Below are positions 19,471-27,861 of a DNA stretch of 64,000 nucleotides, piece after piece. The DNA lies in the IMG/VR virus record IMGVR_UViG_3300025437_000011, positions 1-64,000 of that record, one strand, 5' to 3'. Source of the stretch: a virus. A program made the position numbers and the translations under genes. Positions within the stretch are counted from its first letter, which is position 1. Each line of letters opens with the position of its first letter. The notes under the pieces were generated by a model that did no database searches, had not been told where the DNA came from, and saw only the letters and a list, made by a program, of their open reading frames with translations.

Positions 19471-22400
19471 ATGTCTACAACCGCAGAAGTCAAAATTTCA
19501 GTAGATACAAGTGCAGCAGAGCGCTCTGTAGATGCTTTGTTTAAAAAAGAACGCACGTTAAATGTAAATGTTAAGGGTGGCCAACCACTAGGAAGAATTA
19601 CCGGAGATTTAAGCGAGTTTGATAAGTCAATGGCGGCGGCCAATGCGCGTGTTATCGCTTTCGGTGCTAGTGCTAGTGTTGTGTATGGAATTGAAAAGGC
19701 TTTTCATTCACTGATTGATTCTACTATTGAGGTACAGAAGGCACTAAATCAAGTTCAAGTTATCCTAAATGCTTCGGATAATCAAATGACTAAATTTGGT
19801 TCAAGCTTATTTAATGTTGCAAAACAAACCGGACAAACTTTTGAAACTGTTGCAGAGGCGGCAACCTTACTTTCTCGTCAGGGATTAGGAATGGAGGAAA
19901 CTCTAAAAAGAACAAATGATGCTCTGGTTCTTTCTCGTATTACTGGCATGGATGCGGCAAAGAGTGTTCAGGCACTAACTGCGGCTGTTAACTCGTTTAC
20001 TTCACAGGCCGTAACTGCTACTGAAGTTGTTAATAAATTTGCTACAGTTGATACGCAGTTTGCTATCGGTGCAAAAGATTTGCCAGAAGCTCTTGGCCGC
20101 GTTGGATCTTCTGCGGCTCAGGCTGGTGTTTCACTAGATCAACTTATTGCGCTAGTTACTGCAGCACAGGTTGCCACGGCTCGTGGTGGTGCAGTTATTG
20201 GTAACTCATTCAAAACAATTTTTACAAGATTAGATAGACCAAAAACCCAAAGCTTATTGGAGAGCATGGGTATTAAGACTACAGATGAAAATGGTAAAAT
20301 CAAGGGAACAATTGAATTACTACAAGAACTTGCCAAAAGCTATGATACATTAAATAGAACCCAACAGGCTCAGGTAGCAGAAAAGGTTGGTGGCGTTTTC
20401 CAGATTAACATTTTAAAGGCAACTCTTGCCGACTTAAATAGAGAATATTCTGTTTATAATAACGCATTAAGGGTTTCTCAGGGCGCAACTGACGATGCGT
20501 ATAAAAGAAATGAGGCCCTAAATCAGACTTATTCTTCACAGTTAAATGCGCTTAAATTAAATGCTACGCAATTAGCGGCCACGGCTGGCGAATCTTTGTT
20601 TGGCCCATCCATGAAGAAGTTGATTGGTGGGGGCAATTCTCTTCTTGGGGGTTTGAATGAAGCAGATTCAAATAGTGTCGGCTCAAAACTGGGTAAGGGT
20701 ATTATGGATGGCCTTGGTCAGTTTATTGCCGGGCCGGGTCTAGCTTTAATTGGCGGTGTTTTAGTTAAGCTATTAGCGGACTTTACAAAATTTGCGGCAA
20801 GTGGGGCGAAAGATTTATTGGGTCTAAATAATGCTGCCAAAGACCAAGAGGCGCTACAAAAAAGTATAACAGAAATTTTATCCAAAGACCCTTCAATTTA
20901 TAAACAGATTGAAAGTGGTGCTGCAAGTGTTAATGAGGTTGCGACTAGACTATTGGCAAATTTAAAATTACAGACGGTAGAGCTTGAGTTACAATCAAAG
21001 CTTTCTGCCGAAATTGCCGCTCAAGCATACGGCGGGGGCGCAAGAATTGGACCGGGTGGAGTTCCAAGAGTTAAAGCGGCTGGAGGCTATATTCCGCAGT
21101 TTGCCGAAGAAGAGTCGATGGCGAGAAGTATGGGTGCTGGAAGTGATGTTCGTGCAATGTGGGGTAAGGGCACGATTGGTGGTCAGCCGTTCATAATGAA
21201 CAATAAGGAAAGGGAAATTCCAAATTTTGGTGGTAGTGGTGACTCTGCTGTTATTCCTAGATATGCTGGCGGGTGGGTTCCAAATTTTGCTGATTATAGA
21301 TTAGAAATAAATAATCTGGGAAAAGGGGGTGCAACTTTAGCTAAGTTAATAGGGATTGATGGGGGAGGCACTCCTTGGGGCGACAAAGGTACAAATATTA
21401 AAAGTGCATTAGATCAGATTAATAAGGGAAGGTTTAAAATTAGTGATGGCGATATAGAAAAACTAAAATCACTAAAAGATAGTCAAGTTGCAAATAGGCC
21501 ACCCACAGAGGTAAAAGATAATGGCGAACCTGGTAGTATTACGGTTTCTGGGGGGCAGGGCGGTAGTGAAAAAACGGTAAATTTTGATAATTATGATCTT
21601 GCTAATATAGATGAAACAATAGCAAGTAAGTATGGTGTATTTACCCCAACTGGGGGGCAAGTCGGCATCCAATCAAAACAAAGGGTTAGTGAAATTTCTC
21701 GCCTAAAAGGCTTAAGAGTTACAGGACATTTAGTAACTAGGTTGCCAGGTAAATCAATCTTTCCCCTAAATATTCCTGAGGGTGATTTTGATAAAGTCAT
21801 GGATCAAGCTTTTTATCCTCCTGTTAGACAGGTTGCAGGATTGGTTGCGAAATCATTTCAACCAATTGGAAAAAAAACGTCTCAAGAGGCAATTATTAAA
21901 GGTATTGAGGAGAATGTTCTTACTCCAGCGGTAAAGGGAAGTCTTTTTGAAAAAATTCTAGGAGCAGCCTCTGTTAAATCATCTGAAATTTTTGCTAAGT
22001 CAAATGATATTAAAAAAGATCAAGATGCTTTTGATTATGATCCAATTGCAAATTATCCGTATTTACAAAAGGCACTAAACATATCGGTAGCTGGTGAAGC
22101 TAAAAATTCATTAGACGCAGCTCATAATCTTCCAGGAAAGATTTTAAGAAAAGATTCTGCTGTATTAGAGGCTTTAAAAACCAAGATTTTAAAAGCAACC
22201 GAACCACAGAAAAAGGCGGCTGGTTATATTCCAAATTTTGCCGACGCGCTACATGAATCCATTGCTCGTGAAATTGGCGCTGGAGCGCCGAGTGGCGGAA
22301 TCTACGTTAAACAGTATTCTGAACTCGCCGGGGCTAATAACCCGATGGGATTGGGCGTTTTTAACTCTCGTGATGAGGGTTCACCATCAAAAGAAAGGGG

Positions 22401-25400
22401 CGCGATTCGCCGCAAGGGTTATGCCGCTGGATATATTCCTAACTTCGCAGATGACAGTTCTGGATCTAATTCTTCATCTTATGCAGCGGTCGGTATTGAG
22501 CTTTCTGGACTTGCTACCATGTTGGCGTTTGGTAGTAATGGGATTAGAGAAGAGTATCGAAAACAAATTCAGACTATTTCTGCAGCAAATAAAAATATTT
22601 CCGAAGGATCTTTGAAGCTTAAGGCTGGACTTGCCGCAGGAGGATCTAATATTGCTCTGGCCGTTTCTACTCTGGGGCCAATTATTACTAGCACGATTGC
22701 TAATAATATAGACCAATCTACAAAGTCTGGAAGAGGTTCTGCATCAGCCACTAAGGGTATCGGAGATATTTTAAGTTATGGCGGAACTGGTGCAATGATT
22801 GGAACAGCTATTGAGCCGGTCATAGGAACTGGAATTGGTGCTGTTGCTGGCGTGTTAGTTGGTTTAACTACAACAATTATGGATGTTGGTAATCAACTAA
22901 AAACTGATATACCAGAATTAGAGGCAGCATTTAAAAAAGCTAGTGAAAACCAAACTCAAATACAGCAGCAGTCTACTAATATAATCCAAACTGCAACTGA
23001 ATTAAAAGAATTAACAGAAGCTAATAAGCCTGAAAATGCTGAGAAAATAATTGCAACAAAAGCAAAACTAACCGAACAGATTTCTTCATATACTGGATCA
23101 GCAGATAGGGCCACATTAATTAGTGATTCCGTAGGTAATATAGAAAAATTAGTAGCAGATTTTGCAAAAGATAGAAGAAATTCAGCAGACCAAACCGCCA
23201 AAGCTAGAGCAGAGGCGGACGTGGCTGCCGAATTAAATAAGGGAAAATTTTCTGGGCCATTTGGTGGTGGTGTTGGCATTACTAATTTTGAAAAAACTGC
23301 AGCGCTTGGGAATAGGGAAGCTATGGCTGGGGTTAATATGACTGTAGAAAATATACAAAAAAGACTAACCATTCTTGATTCTGCCAGTCGTGCAAATGAA
23401 AATAGCTCGCTAAGTGTTAAAGCTGTAGCCGAAATTGCTGGAATAAGTGGAGTAAATTTTGAAAATTTTAAAGATCAGTATGAAACTCAGGCCCAACAAA
23501 GAGCCGCGCTTGCCCTATTAGTTCGGGATGAGATTAACCAAAAGCAAGAAGATCTGAATAGCGCCCAACAATTAAATAAACAACAGCAGGAAGCTGCGGA
23601 CGCGGCTGCAGCTGCGGCTGCTGCCCAGCGTCAAATTGTTGAAAAAGATCGTAATTATGTAGCGGCTTTAGAAGAGGCGATAAAAGCTGCGAAGTTTAAT
23701 ATAAGCTTTGGTCAAGAGCGTAGGGTGGCTAGGGCAAACCAGATTGCCGAAATGGGATTTGGTGGGGCGGGACTACAAGATCAAATTGCCAATATTTTTA
23801 GTGGAACCATTGGTAAGGCACGGGCAGAGGCGCCGTTAGATTTGGAGCAAGAAATTTTAAAGTCCATAGGAAAAGAGGGTAATCCAGCTAACTTAACAGA
23901 TGAGAAAATGAGGGCAATTATGTCCGAGGCGCTTAAACCGGAAAATACGAAAGGAGGCGTATATAATGCAAATGCTATAGCTAATAGTATTGGCGCGTCT
24001 GAGGAATTTTTAGCGGTGCATTCTGAAGATAAAGATAAGGGTCTTAAAGCAATATCAGATTTACAAAAAGCCATTGAAGAGGGTAAGTCAAAACTATATG
24101 ATGCACAGCGCGAAGCCACTACTCTATCTGCTCAAAAAATTGATGAATTAATAAGAGTTAATTTCGCTGGTCTAGACAGAGTTGGTGGAGGAATCGAGTC
24201 TGTACTGAGTTATAAAAACCCATCACAAACAGGAGATGATGTTGCCAAAGCAGTTAGGGACTATAATTTAATTTCGAATTCAAAAACTGCAAATTCCGCA
24301 GACATATCTAAAGCAATTTTAGATGTGATGGATAGCGTTTCAAAATTGACTGGTGGCGCGTCAGTAATGACTACAAGTGACCAACTATTTAAAGATTTAA
24401 CAGTAGGAATTAAAGACTCATTATCAAAGAGTTATGATATTGGAGAATCAAAGTTAATGAGTATGAAGGGTGGTGAAGGTATAGTTCGAGCTATTGAGAA
24501 AGATTTATTAGAGCGAACTGGGGAAGTTGATAGAAATAAGGCATTGGCTGATATTGCCGAATATAGTGAAGCAAAAAAACATAATGTTGAAGATACTACG
24601 GGTTTAGGATCAAGACTTTATAATCAAGTTCTTAACGAACAATTAGAAAAATTTGAAAGACTTTCTTCGAGAAATAATGCGCCAGAAATGACTTCTGATA
24701 CAAAGGCTGCAATAGAATTAGCAATTAAAAGTGGCGCGACAACGGGAGCAAAAGATGCAACTGCTGCGCAGATGATAGTTAGTAACGCACAGGATGCGAC
24801 GGCATTTAAGGATATTAATCAATTTCATAATGACTATAATACTAAGACAGATAAGCAAATAGATTTACTAAGAAAGATAGCAATCAATACTCAAGAATCG
24901 GCTGCAGCTGGTAAACCTAGTACAACAGTAACCGTTCCAAGCTCGCATGCTGCTGGATATGTTCCTAATTTTGTTAACTCTACCATTGAAGAATCTTTGG
25001 CTCGTTCATTGGGCGCTAAAAATCCGCGCGCACATTATGGAAGAGGTCGAATAGGTGGAAAGCGTTTCTTAATGAATAGCGAGGAGATGGAGATTCCAAA
25101 TTTTGCAGGGGGGCCTGATTCGGCTGTTATTCCGATGTATGCAGATGGAAACCTTCCGCTCGAAATGATAGATTTAAGTAAAGTAAAAACTAAATTTGGT
25201 ACTTATTATAATCCAAAAAAGTCTGGCTTGGGAACTCGTGGAAAATTTAGTGGATTAAATTTTGGAACAGAAGAAATGTCGGAGTATGGCTATAATACTA
25301 CATATACCAAAGATATAAAAATAAATAAAGAGTTATTTAGTTCAAATTTAAGCTCCGATAAATTTTCTTTACTTGAAAAGTATACACCAGCAGAATTGCG

Positions 25401-27861
25401 TAGATTTGTAGCTGCACATGAAGCACATCATGCGAGTGGAGATATTAAAACTAAACCGATTTTAACAGAATTATATAATTCTAGTGAAACATTTGCAAAT
25501 TTTCAAGGGGGTTTTTCGGCACCTAGGGGCGCGAATGCCATACAAAGAATTGGCAGTGGAATTTCTGCTGTAATTGATTATTGGAATGATCCTAGAACAT
25601 TAGATCATTATGCAATGGCAAAATCAGAGAGATTTAAGAGCGCTAGGGGTCATTTATCTAGAATGACAGGCCCTTACGCGGATGAGTATTATGATTTAAA
25701 AAAACCACTTTCTGATACTGAGAAAAAATTACTGTATTTATTTAGTAAAAAATGGGCAGAATTCAATTCGGGTGGAAAAGGTGCATTTATAAATAGAGAT
25801 GCCAATCTTATTACGAATTTAGAGGAGTCTGCGGGTAAGATTTTATCTGGCAAAGCTTTGAGTAGTTTTTTGGGTAATAGTGTAAAGGGTGCCGGATTGG
25901 TGGCTGGAGATGTATTGGGATTATTAGGTAGTGTGCCGGGACAAATACTTGGTGGAGCGGAATCAATGGGGGACGCAACTGCAGATACATTTATAGAAAG
26001 AGAGCGCGACAGGCGGGAGAAGGCTCAAGGTGCGGCAATGGCAGCTGCAATCTCTAGGGAGATAGCTGGCGGCGCTCCAGCTTCTTCTATCTATACAAAA
26101 TCATGGGATCAACTTAAAAATCCATTGAACCCTATGGGTTTGGGGGTATTCAATAGTCGTGATGAGGGGTCTCCTTCTTCGGAATTAAACGCTATTATTA
26201 AAAAGGGTTATGCGGTCGGGCATATTCCTAATTTTGTTAAAGAGGATGAGGATAAAGAGGAGGCGGCTAGGAGAAAAAAGGTTCAGGAAGACCTCGCAGA
26301 TTATGGGAAGTGGGATACCACTCAGGAGACCGCATTTCTCTTCCGCGGGCGACAAGTCATATTTGAGAAAGCGGCGGAAAAGCGTGACGTCGAACTTATG
26401 AAAGAAGCGGACAAACAAATGTCTGATGAATTAAATAAGGGAAAATTTTCTGGGCTTGCCGGATGGCTTGGTATGGGTACTGGTATTGATAATGTTGAAA
26501 AAGTTGCAAAAATTGGGAATAGACGAGAAATGGCTGGAATTGCTCCGACTGTGGAAAATATACAATTAAGACTAAAAAAGCTAGAATGGGTAGAGAACAT
26601 GTTAAATATCATAGACGAGGTCAAAAAAGATAATCCAAACGCGTTCAGCGGGCGCGACGGCGCGCAGCGAAGGGCCGAATTCGATATCGGGGGGGAGGCA
26701 AGGGGGCTTGGATTGAATGCTAAAAATAATATGAATTTGGCACGTCAGAAAGGATCTGATCATGAATATTTGACCGAACTGAATCTATTGCTTCAAACCG
26801 AGATCCTACAAATGCAAAAACTCTTGGATGAAACTGAAAAGAAAAATAAGGATGAGAAGCAGAGACGGCCTTCAGTATCTACAACTCCACCGTCAGCCGG
26901 GGTGGCGGGACGACCTTCGATATCTATAACTCCACCGTCAGCCGGGGTGGCGGGACGACCTTCGATATCTACAACTCCACCGTCGAGCCCTTCAACATCT
27001 ATAATACGAGATGCTATAACAGCGGCCTCGCTACCAACCACAAGCGCTGTACAAAGTAATATTCCCGCGAGTGTTTCAGATAAAGATGCGGCTAGAAACA
27101 CGGCGATAGATAATCGAATATCAGAATTACCAATAATACAAAATACGACACGAAACAGGTTACCACAGCATAAAAATCCGGAAGATTTTCCTTGGTCTCC
27201 TACTCAAGGTGGTCTACATTCAGGCAATAGGGCGGGCCGTCTTGGTTATCATATGGCGCATAGAAATGATTCTCAAATCGGCCCGGAAAGTCAAGAGTCA
27301 ATCGAAAATAGAGAATTACGTAATAAACGTTTCGAAATAGAACGCCTGATGACGATTAGAAATCACGCTATGCAAACTGGTAATGTGGGTTTAGTTAACC
27401 AAATAGATACAAATAAGGGAGATTTAAATCAAGCATGGAAAGATATAAAAGATGAGGGTATAAGAAAAAGAAAAGAAAGAGAACCAGAGCCTGATGCATG
27501 GGTGCAAGAGGCGCGACAGGCGCGAGAGCAAAAGATGCAAGGTGCAATAGAAGACAAGGCGCGTAGATTTTTACAAGAAAGAGGCAGTCCAGAACAAATA
27601 GAAAATTTCAACAAAGCACATCCAGATAATAAAATAGAAAAAAATAATAGTGGAAAAACAGCGGGTGCTCATGTTCCTATTACAATTAATATAGCTAACT
27701 CATCTAAGGAGTTTGCTCAGGGTCTTGCGGCTCATGTTGAAAAGCATGCCAAGGAATATGTAGAGAAACATATGAGCCAAACAAAGCAAATTGCTGCGAA
27801 TGCCGCCAAAAAAGATAATAGTCTATACGGCCCACCAATGGGTAATAATAGAAATGTATAA
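19471..27861 (+). CDS. tail tape measure protein with duplicated modules and inserted enzyme-like domains
   Basis: 2796 residues. About 45-300 match the phage tape-measure core (DLSEFDKSMAAANARVIAFG, AATLLSRQGLG, LGRVGSSAAQAG, GNSFKTIFTRL). A hydrophobic stretch lies near 415-440 and a Gly-zipper membrane-like stretch near 1103-1140. Block A (about 536-610 and 1825-1893), block B (about 915-995 and 2190-2258) and block C (about 1253-1310 and 2319-2375) each occur twice in the order A-B-C. Six GY(I/V/H)P(N/Q)F-type motifs mark A and B. Between A1 and B1 lies a PD-(D/E)xK-like segment (E827, D857, E876-x-K878); between A2 and B2 lies HEAHH (1983-1987). A Pro-rich tandem repeat sits at about 2471-2510. 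The protein sets tail length and is ejected ahead of DNA; AAGGA precedes the ATG. Confidence 0.92.
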   Translation: MSTTAEVKISVDTSAAERSVDALFKKERTLNVNVKGGQPLGRITGDLSEFDKSMAAANARVIAFGASASVVYGIEKAFHSLIDSTIEVQKALNQVQVILNASDNQMTKFGSSLFNVAKQTGQTFETVAEAATLLSRQGLGMEETLKRTNDALVLSRITGMDAAKSVQALTAAVNSFTSQAVTATEVVNKFATVDTQFAIGAKDLPEALGRVGSSAAQAGVSLDQLIALVTAAQVATARGGAVIGNSFKTIFTRLDRPKTQSLLESMGIKTTDENGKIKGTIELLQELAKSYDTLNRTQQAQVAEKVGGVFQINILKATLADLNREYSVYNNALRVSQGATDDAYKRNEALNQTYSSQLNALKLNATQLAATAGESLFGPSMKKLIGGGNSLLGGLNEADSNSVGSKLGKGIMDGLGQFIAGPGLALIGGVLVKLLADFTKFAASGAKDLLGLNNAAKDQEALQKSITEILSKDPSIYKQIESGAASVNEVATRLLANLKLQTVELELQSKLSAEIAAQAYGGGARIGPGGVPRVKAAGGYIPQFAEEESMARSMGAGSDVRAMWGKGTIGGQPFIMNNKEREIPNFGGSGDSAVIPRYAGGWVPNFADYRLEINNLGKGGATLAKLIGIDGGGTPWGDKGTNIKSALDQINKGRFKISDGDIEKLKSLKDSQVANRPPTEVKDNGEPGSITVSGGQGGSEKTVNFDNYDLANIDETIASKYGVFTPTGGQVGIQSKQRVSEISRLKGLRVTGHLVTRLPGKSIFPLNIPEGDFDKVMDQAFYPPVRQVAGLVAKSFQPIGKKTSQEAIIKGIEENVLTPAVKGSLFEKILGAASVKSSEIFAKSNDIKKDQDAFDYDPIANYPYLQKALNISVAGEAKNSLDAAHNLPGKILRKDSAVLEALKTKILKATEPQKKAAGYIPNFADALHESIAREIGAGAPSGGIYVKQYSELAGANNPMGLGVFNSRDEGSPSKERGAIRRKGYAAGYIPNFADDSSGSNSSSYAAVGIELSGLATMLAFGSNGIREEYRKQIQTISAANKNISEGSLKLKAGLAAGGSNIALAVSTLGPIITSTIANNIDQSTKSGRGSASATKGIGDILSYGGTGAMIGTAIEPVIGTGIGAVAGVLVGLTTTIMDVGNQLKTDIPELEAAFKKASENQTQIQQQSTNIIQTATELKELTEANKPENAEKIIATKAKLTEQISSYTGSADRATLISDSVGNIEKLVADFAKDRRNSADQTAKARAEADVAAELNKGKFSGPFGGGVGITNFEKTAALGNREAMAGVNMTVENIQKRLTILDSASRANENSSLSVKAVAEIAGISGVNFENFKDQYETQAQQRAALALLVRDEINQKQEDLNSAQQLNKQQQEAADAAAAAAAAQRQIVEKDRNYVAALEEAIKAAKFNISFGQERRVARANQIAEMGFGGAGLQDQIANIFSGTIGKARAEAPLDLEQEILKSIGKEGNPANLTDEKMRAIMSEALKPENTKGGVYNANAIANSIGASEEFLAVHSEDKDKGLKAISDLQKAIEEGKSKLYDAQREATTLSAQKIDELIRVNFAGLDRVGGGIESVLSYKNPSQTGDDVAKAVRDYNLISNSKTANSADISKAILDVMDSVSKLTGGASVMTTSDQLFKDLTVGIKDSLSKSYDIGESKLMSMKGGEGIVRAIEKDLLERTGEVDRNKALADIAEYSEAKKHNVEDTTGLGSRLYNQVLNEQLEKFERLSSRNNAPEMTSDTKAAIELAIKSGATTGAKDATAAQMIVSNAQDATAFKDINQFHNDYNTKTDKQIDLLRKIAINTQESAAAGKPSTTVTVPSSHAAGYVPNFVNSTIEESLARSLGAKNPRAHYGRGRIGGKRFLMNSEEMEIPNFAGGPDSAVIPMYADGNLPLEMIDLSKVKTKFGTYYNPKKSGLGTRGKFSGLNFGTEEMSEYGYNTTYTKDIKINKELFSSNLSSDKFSLLEKYTPAELRRFVAAHEAHHASGDIKTKPILTELYNSSETFANFQGGFSAPRGANAIQRIGSGISAVIDYWNDPRTLDHYAMAKSERFKSARGHLSRMTGPYADEYYDLKKPLSDTEKKLLYLFSKKWAEFNSGGKGAFINRDANLITNLEESAGKILSGKALSSFLGNSVKGAGLVAGDVLGLLGSVPGQILGGAESMGDATADTFIERERDRREKAQGAAMAAAISREIAGGAPASSIYTKSWDQLKNPLNPMGLGVFNSRDEGSPSSELNAIIKKGYAVGHIPNFVKEDEDKEEAARRKKVQEDLADYGKWDTTQETAFLFRGRQVIFEKAAEKRDVELMKEADKQMSDELNKGKFSGLAGWLGMGTGIDNVEKVAKIGNRREMAGIAPTVENIQLRLKKLEWVENMLNIIDEVKKDNPNAFSGRDGAQRRAEFDIGGEARGLGLNAKNNMNLARQKGSDHEYLTELNLLLQTEILQMQKLLDETEKKNKDEKQRRPSVSTTPPSAGVAGRPSISITPPSAGVAGRPSISTTPPSSPSTSIIRDAITAASLPTTSAVQSNIPASVSDKDAARNTAIDNRISELPIIQNTTRNRLPQHKNPEDFPWSPTQGGLHSGNRAGRLGYHMAHRNDSQIGPESQESIENRELRNKRFEIERLMTIRNHAMQTGNVGLVNQIDTNKGDLNQAWKDIKDEGIRKRKEREPEPDAWVQEARQAREQKMQGAIEDKARRFLQERGSPEQIENFNKAHPDNKIEKNNSGKTAGAHVPITINIANSSKEFAQGLAAHVEKHAKEYVEKHMSQTKQIAANAAKKDNSLYGPPMGNNRNV
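21076..21294 (+). repeat. tape measure block A, copy 1
   Basis: Encodes GYIPQFA, then SMARSMGAG, IGGQPFIMN, EIPNFGGSGDSAVIP and GGWVPNFA. It is the partner of copy 2 at 24946-25150, with matching order and about the same length. Confidence 0.8.
22216..22455 (+). repeat. tape measure block B, copy 1
   Basis: Encodes AAGYIPNFA, SIAREIGAGAPSGGIY, NPMGLGVFNSRDEGSPS and a second AAGYIPNFA. Partner of 26044-26244; the peptide NPMGLGVFNSRDEGSPS is identical in both. Confidence 0.85.
23230..23400 (+). repeat. tape measure block C, copy 1
   Basis: Encodes ELNKGKFSG, then GNREAMAG and VENIQKRL. Partner of 26428-26590. The first 27 nt are identical in both copies, which suggests a fairly recent duplication or conversion. 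Confidence 0.8.
24946..25150 (+). repeat. tape measure block A, copy 2
   Basis: Encodes AAGYVPNFV, ESLARSLGAK, IGGKRFLMNSEE, EIPNFAGGPDSAVIP. It immediately precedes the HEAHH-bearing insert. Confidence 0.8.
26044..26244 (+). repeat. tape measure block B, copy 2
   Basis: Encodes AISREIAGGAPASSIY, NPMGLGVFNSRDEGSPS and AVGHIPNFV. It closes the insert that contains the metallopeptidase-like motif. Confidence 0.8.
26428..26590 (+). repeat. tape measure block C, copy 2
   Basis: Second copy of the ELNKGKFSG ... GNRREMAG ... VENIQLRL block. The flanking DNA, from about 26270 and again at 26640-26720, is clearly richer in G+C than the rest of the gene. Confidence 0.8.
26881..27000 (+). repeat. 45-nt tandem repeat, Pro-rich, 2.7 copies
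   Basis: Two almost identical 45-nt units (26881-26925 and 26926-26970, differing at one base by eye) plus a partial third encode TTPPSAGVAGRPSIS. The high-identity, GC-rich repeat in an AT-rich gene suggests recent slippage expansion. It encodes a flexible linker. Confidence 0.88.

Follow-up and report, generated by a model that had tools for sequence, protein, structure and literature searches.

The tape measure protein (TMP) encoded in the window, the whole stretch of 64,000 nucleotides analysed here, has exchangeable interiors: cargo segments are swapped between recurrent frame blocks, named A and B, and turn over rapidly, as comparison with related phages supports well. The window's TMP has two such slots, and the second holds an insert with the motif HEAHH. 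The reading that we tentatively put first is that this insert is a swappable, divergent gluzincin-like cassette, which would be ejected with the tape and act on a target in the host.

We class the protein as a TP901-type TMP from its N-terminal region, which matches PF10145 in Pfam (E = 5.7e-29) and TIGR01760 in NCBIfam (E = 5.2e-38), both above the curated cut-offs, and from its matches to tape measure families of PHROGs. Ten ORFs of the structural region around the gene (window positions 11935-38710) have no match in PHROGs, and judged by this sequence comparison they are those of a poorly described phage group. Within the TMP gene, three tandem repeats of 45 nt (26864-26998) code for a Pro/Ser-rich stretch. 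The features discussed below are given in Table 1.

Table 1. Features of the tape measure gene, in positions of the window.
Feature	Position	Strand	Remarks	Basis
TMP gene	19471..27861	+	2,796 aa, TP901-type N-terminal region	ORF, Pfam, NCBIfam, PHROGs
Frame block A1	21076..21300	+	Limits approximate	
Slot-1 cargo (aa 611-915)	21301..22215	+	Unrelated to the HEAHH insert in slot 2; homologues in L005 and L019	
Frame block B1	22216..22470	+	Limits approximate	
Frame block A2 (aa ~1826-1896)	24946..25158	+	Closing GYxPNFA degenerate (GNLPLE)	
Putative gluzincin-like insert core (aa 1897-2075)	25159..25695	+	Limits estimated	Layout alone
HEAHH (aa 1983-1987)	25417..25431	+	Codons: H1983, 25417-25419; E1984, 25420-25422; H1987, 25429-25431	Read from sequence
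E2006, possible third zinc ligand	25486..25488	+	Within SSETFANF	Read from sequence
Gly-rich hydrophobic stretch LVAGDVLGLLGSVPGQILG (aa 2143-2161)	25897..25953	+	Downstream of insert core	
Frame block B2 (aa ~2186-2262)	26026..26256	+	Limits approximate; opening PNF motif absent	

In IMG/VR, we found 227 relatives of the N-terminus of the TMP and kept 80 of them. They share a plan made of the N-terminal region (to about residue 540), an A block, at least one cargo segment, a B block, and hydrophobic and coiled segments. The cargo segments, one to several per protein, are delimited by [G/A][F/Y]xPNF motifs (GYxPNFA). Nearly all related TMPs carry PNF motifs; in distant members, the A block is unrecognisable or some motifs are missing. 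The B block occurs at 311 loci in IMG/VR, with no credible match among cultured phages and none in the scan of prokaryote genomes. Clustering the 361 cargo segments found between adjacent motifs gave 68 clusters, a rough count in which the biggest cluster takes in parts of the frame. The first-pass annotation had noticed, from the two slots of this one protein, that the same A and B frame carries different cargo, and dozens of relatives now strongly support this. It had also called the slot-1 cargo nuclease-like, a description that we could not confirm, as this segment has no match in Pfam.

Exchange is apparent already in the nearest relative, L004, which is 79% identical to the window's TMP over residues 1-607 and then has a different cargo until the B block; two relatives more distant than L004 (L005 and L019) have the window's slot-1 cargo. 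Among pairs of TMPs, the slot-1 cargo was homologous in 17 of 20 pairs with 90-100% identity in the N-terminal region, in 27 of 46 with 80-90% (unrelated in the other 19), in 23 of 59 with 70-80%, and in 14 of 70 with 60-70%, counts in which the same proteins are reused, so that the pairs are not independent. The cores of the window's two cargo segments have a GC content of 33.7% and 36.5%, against 43-50% in the A and B blocks.

The second slot probably did not arise as a recent copy of the first. Identity is 57% between A1 and A2 and 54% between B1 and B2, whereas with the blocks of L004 it is 67% for A2 and 62% for B2. Since they are closer to that relative than to their counterparts in the same protein, we disfavour a recent duplication of slot 1. 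L007, L009, L011, and L016 likewise have two A-type blocks, the second of them close to the C-terminus. Downstream of this second block, L016 has HEFTHAMQND...EETQAR and then a hydrophobic, Gly-rich stretch; the elements come in the order seen in the window (HExxH, then Gly-rich hydrophobic), without sequence similarity to it. Zincin-like HExxH segments unrelated to the insert were found in L016 and in L043 and L085; the further loci with an A block or a second slot that we examined gave no additional zincin.

The elements on which the peptidase claim was built are present where the first-pass annotation had put them: in the ORF, H1983, E1984, and H1987 lie between A2 and B2, and E2006 follows H1987 by 19 residues. 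The protein is poor in histidine (26 residues in 2,796), and its composition predicts 0.016 HExxH. Among related proteins (136 after removal of redundancy, 358,216 aa in all), we observed 5 HExxH, about ten times the 0.49 given by shuffled sequences (maximum of 3 per set across 200 shuffles); these 5 are not independent, as one domain is common to L043 and L085, and they amount to four kinds, of which three are credible, the HEHKH of L151 being not zincin-like by eye. HExxH with E..A/T downstream occurred twice in the same proteins, against 0.19 expected. The HExxH of the window's TMP is unlikely to be a chance occurrence.

A putative strand (IKIN), a helix bearing HEAHH, and then E2006 make up a layout that fits the gluzincin type named by the first-pass annotation. 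The fold itself is supported by no profile or structure, and the Ala after HE is atypical; with this residue HEAHH fails to match what we take to be the PROSITE zinc-protease signature. Judged from the layout, the insert is somewhat more probably a zincin or metallopeptidase than something else. It is rather unlikely, though a serious alternative, that there is no peptidase, and that HEAHH is coincidental in a helical structural cargo or spacer or belongs to a decayed enzyme. The insert is an orphan sequence without family or structural support (Pfam, NCBIfam, PDB, AlphaFold2), and because chance alone would give about 0.5 HExxH in all the proteins together, one of the observed motifs may be accidental. 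Against this reading stand the much lower expectation for the window's TMP by itself, the possible ligand Glu at a zincin-like spacing downstream, and the zincin-like segments that recur in two further TMPs, that of L016 lying in the equivalent position.

Searches for relatives of the insert gave no family match in Pfam, PHROGs, or NCBIfam and no match among PDB sequences. Relatives were found neither among cultured phages, nor in 95 related phage records, nor in scans of IMG/VR and of prokaryote genomes (one genome per species, 84,980 species), both seeded by exact short peptides, from which distant relatives may escape. A scan with the pattern HEAHHxxGD returned 17 matches, none of them insert-like by eye and most in short or shadow frames. 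The missing family matches carry little weight because a family of kinase-like cassettes, described below, also lacks a credible match in Pfam. AlphaFold2 was run twice on the single sequence (pLDDT of 34.5 and 34.0). The second model contains short strands, a HEAHH helix, and a helix ending near E2006, an order that would be that of a zincin core and that at a pLDDT of about 34 is no evidence; a Foldseek search with the cropped model of this quality gave no match. We also built an ad hoc HMM. Its 17 input sequences were free zincin-like proteins detected by PF06114 in this phage record and in related ones. The HMM ranked the window's TMP first of 81 TMPs, yet with an E-value of 0.66. Comparison of the three HExxH cassettes with hhalign gave no likeness outside the motif, and a MAFFT alignment of them misplaced the motif and was excluded.

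Peptidases of family M78 (ImmA/IrrE, PF06114) have an IxIN strand, a HExxH helix, and then E-x-x-A-N. The insert resembles them in this layout, and its E-x-x-A-N-F prompted us to consider this identity, yet the PF06114 profile misses the insert (search of this genome alone, E ≤10), and we rejected it. Beyond the window, at record position 73682, a 416-aa protein (L167) with the motif CHECMH has a weak match to PF06114. It is related to proteins from other phages in the clade and by eye seems to carry a metallopeptidase-like domain and, after it, a VWA-like one.

Two further roles have to be weighed for a peptidase in this position. That the zincin would cut the tape itself, to free cargo segments or to trim the tape prior to or following its ejection, seems quite improbable. 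Self-processing has been proposed for the zincin domains of polyvalent proteins (Iyer et al., PMC5512222), and the repeated short GYxPNFA motifs at the cargo borders offer possible cut sites. However, zincin-like HExxH segments are present only in the window's TMP and in two other kinds of TMP, and their rarity beside the near-universal PNF motifs indicates that the motifs are independent of a cassette protease. Both inner GYxPNFA motifs adjoining the insert (within 24952-26256) are, moreover, degenerate (GNLPLE) or lost, unlike those at the borders of the slot-1 cargo. Processing of the tape, which the first-pass annotation had listed among the possible functions next to wall passage and action on a host protein, is unlikely as a general job, with the insert present in 1 of about 80 TMPs and the cargo exchanged.

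We give equally little credence to a cell-wall or envelope peptidase that would aid the passage of the tail, by analogy with the lytic domains of other TMPs. The usual wall-lytic domains of tails are M23, NlpC/P60, and transglycosylases; to our knowledge, the wall-lytic metallopeptidases of tails do not use HExxH...E, which counts against this role. The insert matches no wall-lytic family in Pfam or NCBIfam, and a step needed for wall passage should persist in close relatives, which the HEAHH cassette does not. What speaks for wall passage is the hydrophobic Gly-rich stretch downstream of the insert core and the precedent of lytic domains known in the TMPs of enterococcal phages (PMC10194240).

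An effector directed at the host agrees better with the dynamics of the cargo. Its rapid replacement favours such an effector over a fixed step of tail assembly, and the exchange of the cassette, together with the lack of HExxH in most relatives, weakens a fixed role in tape maturation and strengthens a host-directed one. The insert would then be the cargo cassette in the second of the two A/B slots, with zinc bound by H1983, H1987, and E2006 and with E1984 as the general base. The tape would be packed inside the tail tube, leave it before the DNA at infection, and enter or traverse the inner membrane, exposing the putative peptidase domain to a protein of the host envelope or cytoplasm. We infer delivery into the host from other tape measure proteins.

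Several known systems share parts of this arrangement. The cited passages on Thermus phage P23-45 describe its TMP, gp96, as a giant protein with a fused virion RNA polymerase. It also has a metallopeptidase domain and transmembrane domains, and the authors regard these as characteristic of many TMPs (PMC10770324). The likeness to the window's TMP is one of described domains; these passages describe no A/B frame or exchangeable cassettes, unlike what we observe here. Zincins are the commonest domain of the polyvalent proteins of phages and plasmids; the roles proposed for them are the processing of these proteins or an activity that follows injection (Iyer et al. 2017, PMC5512222, a text from which 'tape measure' is absent). 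They combine a HExxH helix with a ligand Glu in the next helix, as the insert would, occur in large multidomain proteins that phages deliver into the host, and form diverse clades without close relatives. We found no sequence link between them and the insert, which differs in sitting between A and B frame blocks. Finally, bacterial contractile injection systems have tape-measure-related effectors, Tme and Sle1 (PMC11126660, PMC13277306). These resemble tape measure proteins and, like the phage TMPs studied here, contain hydrophobic segments and a functional domain that can be exchanged; Tme also has a DUF4157 domain. Both are bacterial and carry C-terminal effector domains, whereas the window's clade has a phage tape with internal cassettes, several of them in some relatives. 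Since TMPs with metallopeptidases and injected phage proteins with zincins had been described before, the putative peptidase is a new variant; the cassette system is more interesting than the peptidase itself.

Several other cargo families of the related TMPs resemble enzymes, which speaks for the effector reading. A P-loop family with the Walker A motif GPAGSGKST (L099, L109, L092, L101, L108, L113, L090, and L091; alignment A10) is the sole cassette with significant profile support, its profile matching a phosphate-loop protein in PDB (E = 2.5e-8). A kinase-like family of eight distinct sequences inside TMPs (e.g., L117:8249-8899; alignment A7) has a glycine-rich loop and the motifs VGVKKF, DLHGSN, and DPG; it has no credible match in Pfam, and its match to a kinase in PDB is not significant (E = 2.1). 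Two segments (L065:13379-13891 and L084:10601-10975) resemble HAD phosphatases by motif (DLDETLL, YDWDGTI, LTARS/LTSRP), without support from PDB or Pfam, and the cargo L067:14291-14746 has a weak match to GNAT (PF00583, E = 0.003), under the curated cut-off. When single cassettes of ART-like, HAD-like, and P-loop/nucleotidyltransferase-like appearance were searched against PDB, no match was credible.

With some reserve, we suggest that the TMP of this widespread clade of uncultured phages might be a magazine of interchangeable enzymatic effectors delivered at infection. Its cargo (protease-like, kinase-like, P-loop, and others) would sit in slots between A and B blocks, with GYxPNFA motifs, and a second slot is present in some phages, including that of the window. 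Should the cassettes be effectors that are ejected, phages would have in the tape measure a route of delivery next to the injection proteins packaged in the head, and the rapidly changing cargo would amount to a list of candidate host-directed enzymes. The cassette reading would also make the non-measuring roles of very long tapes testable, and it raises the question of how tail length is kept when the size of the cargo varies within the protein that sets it.
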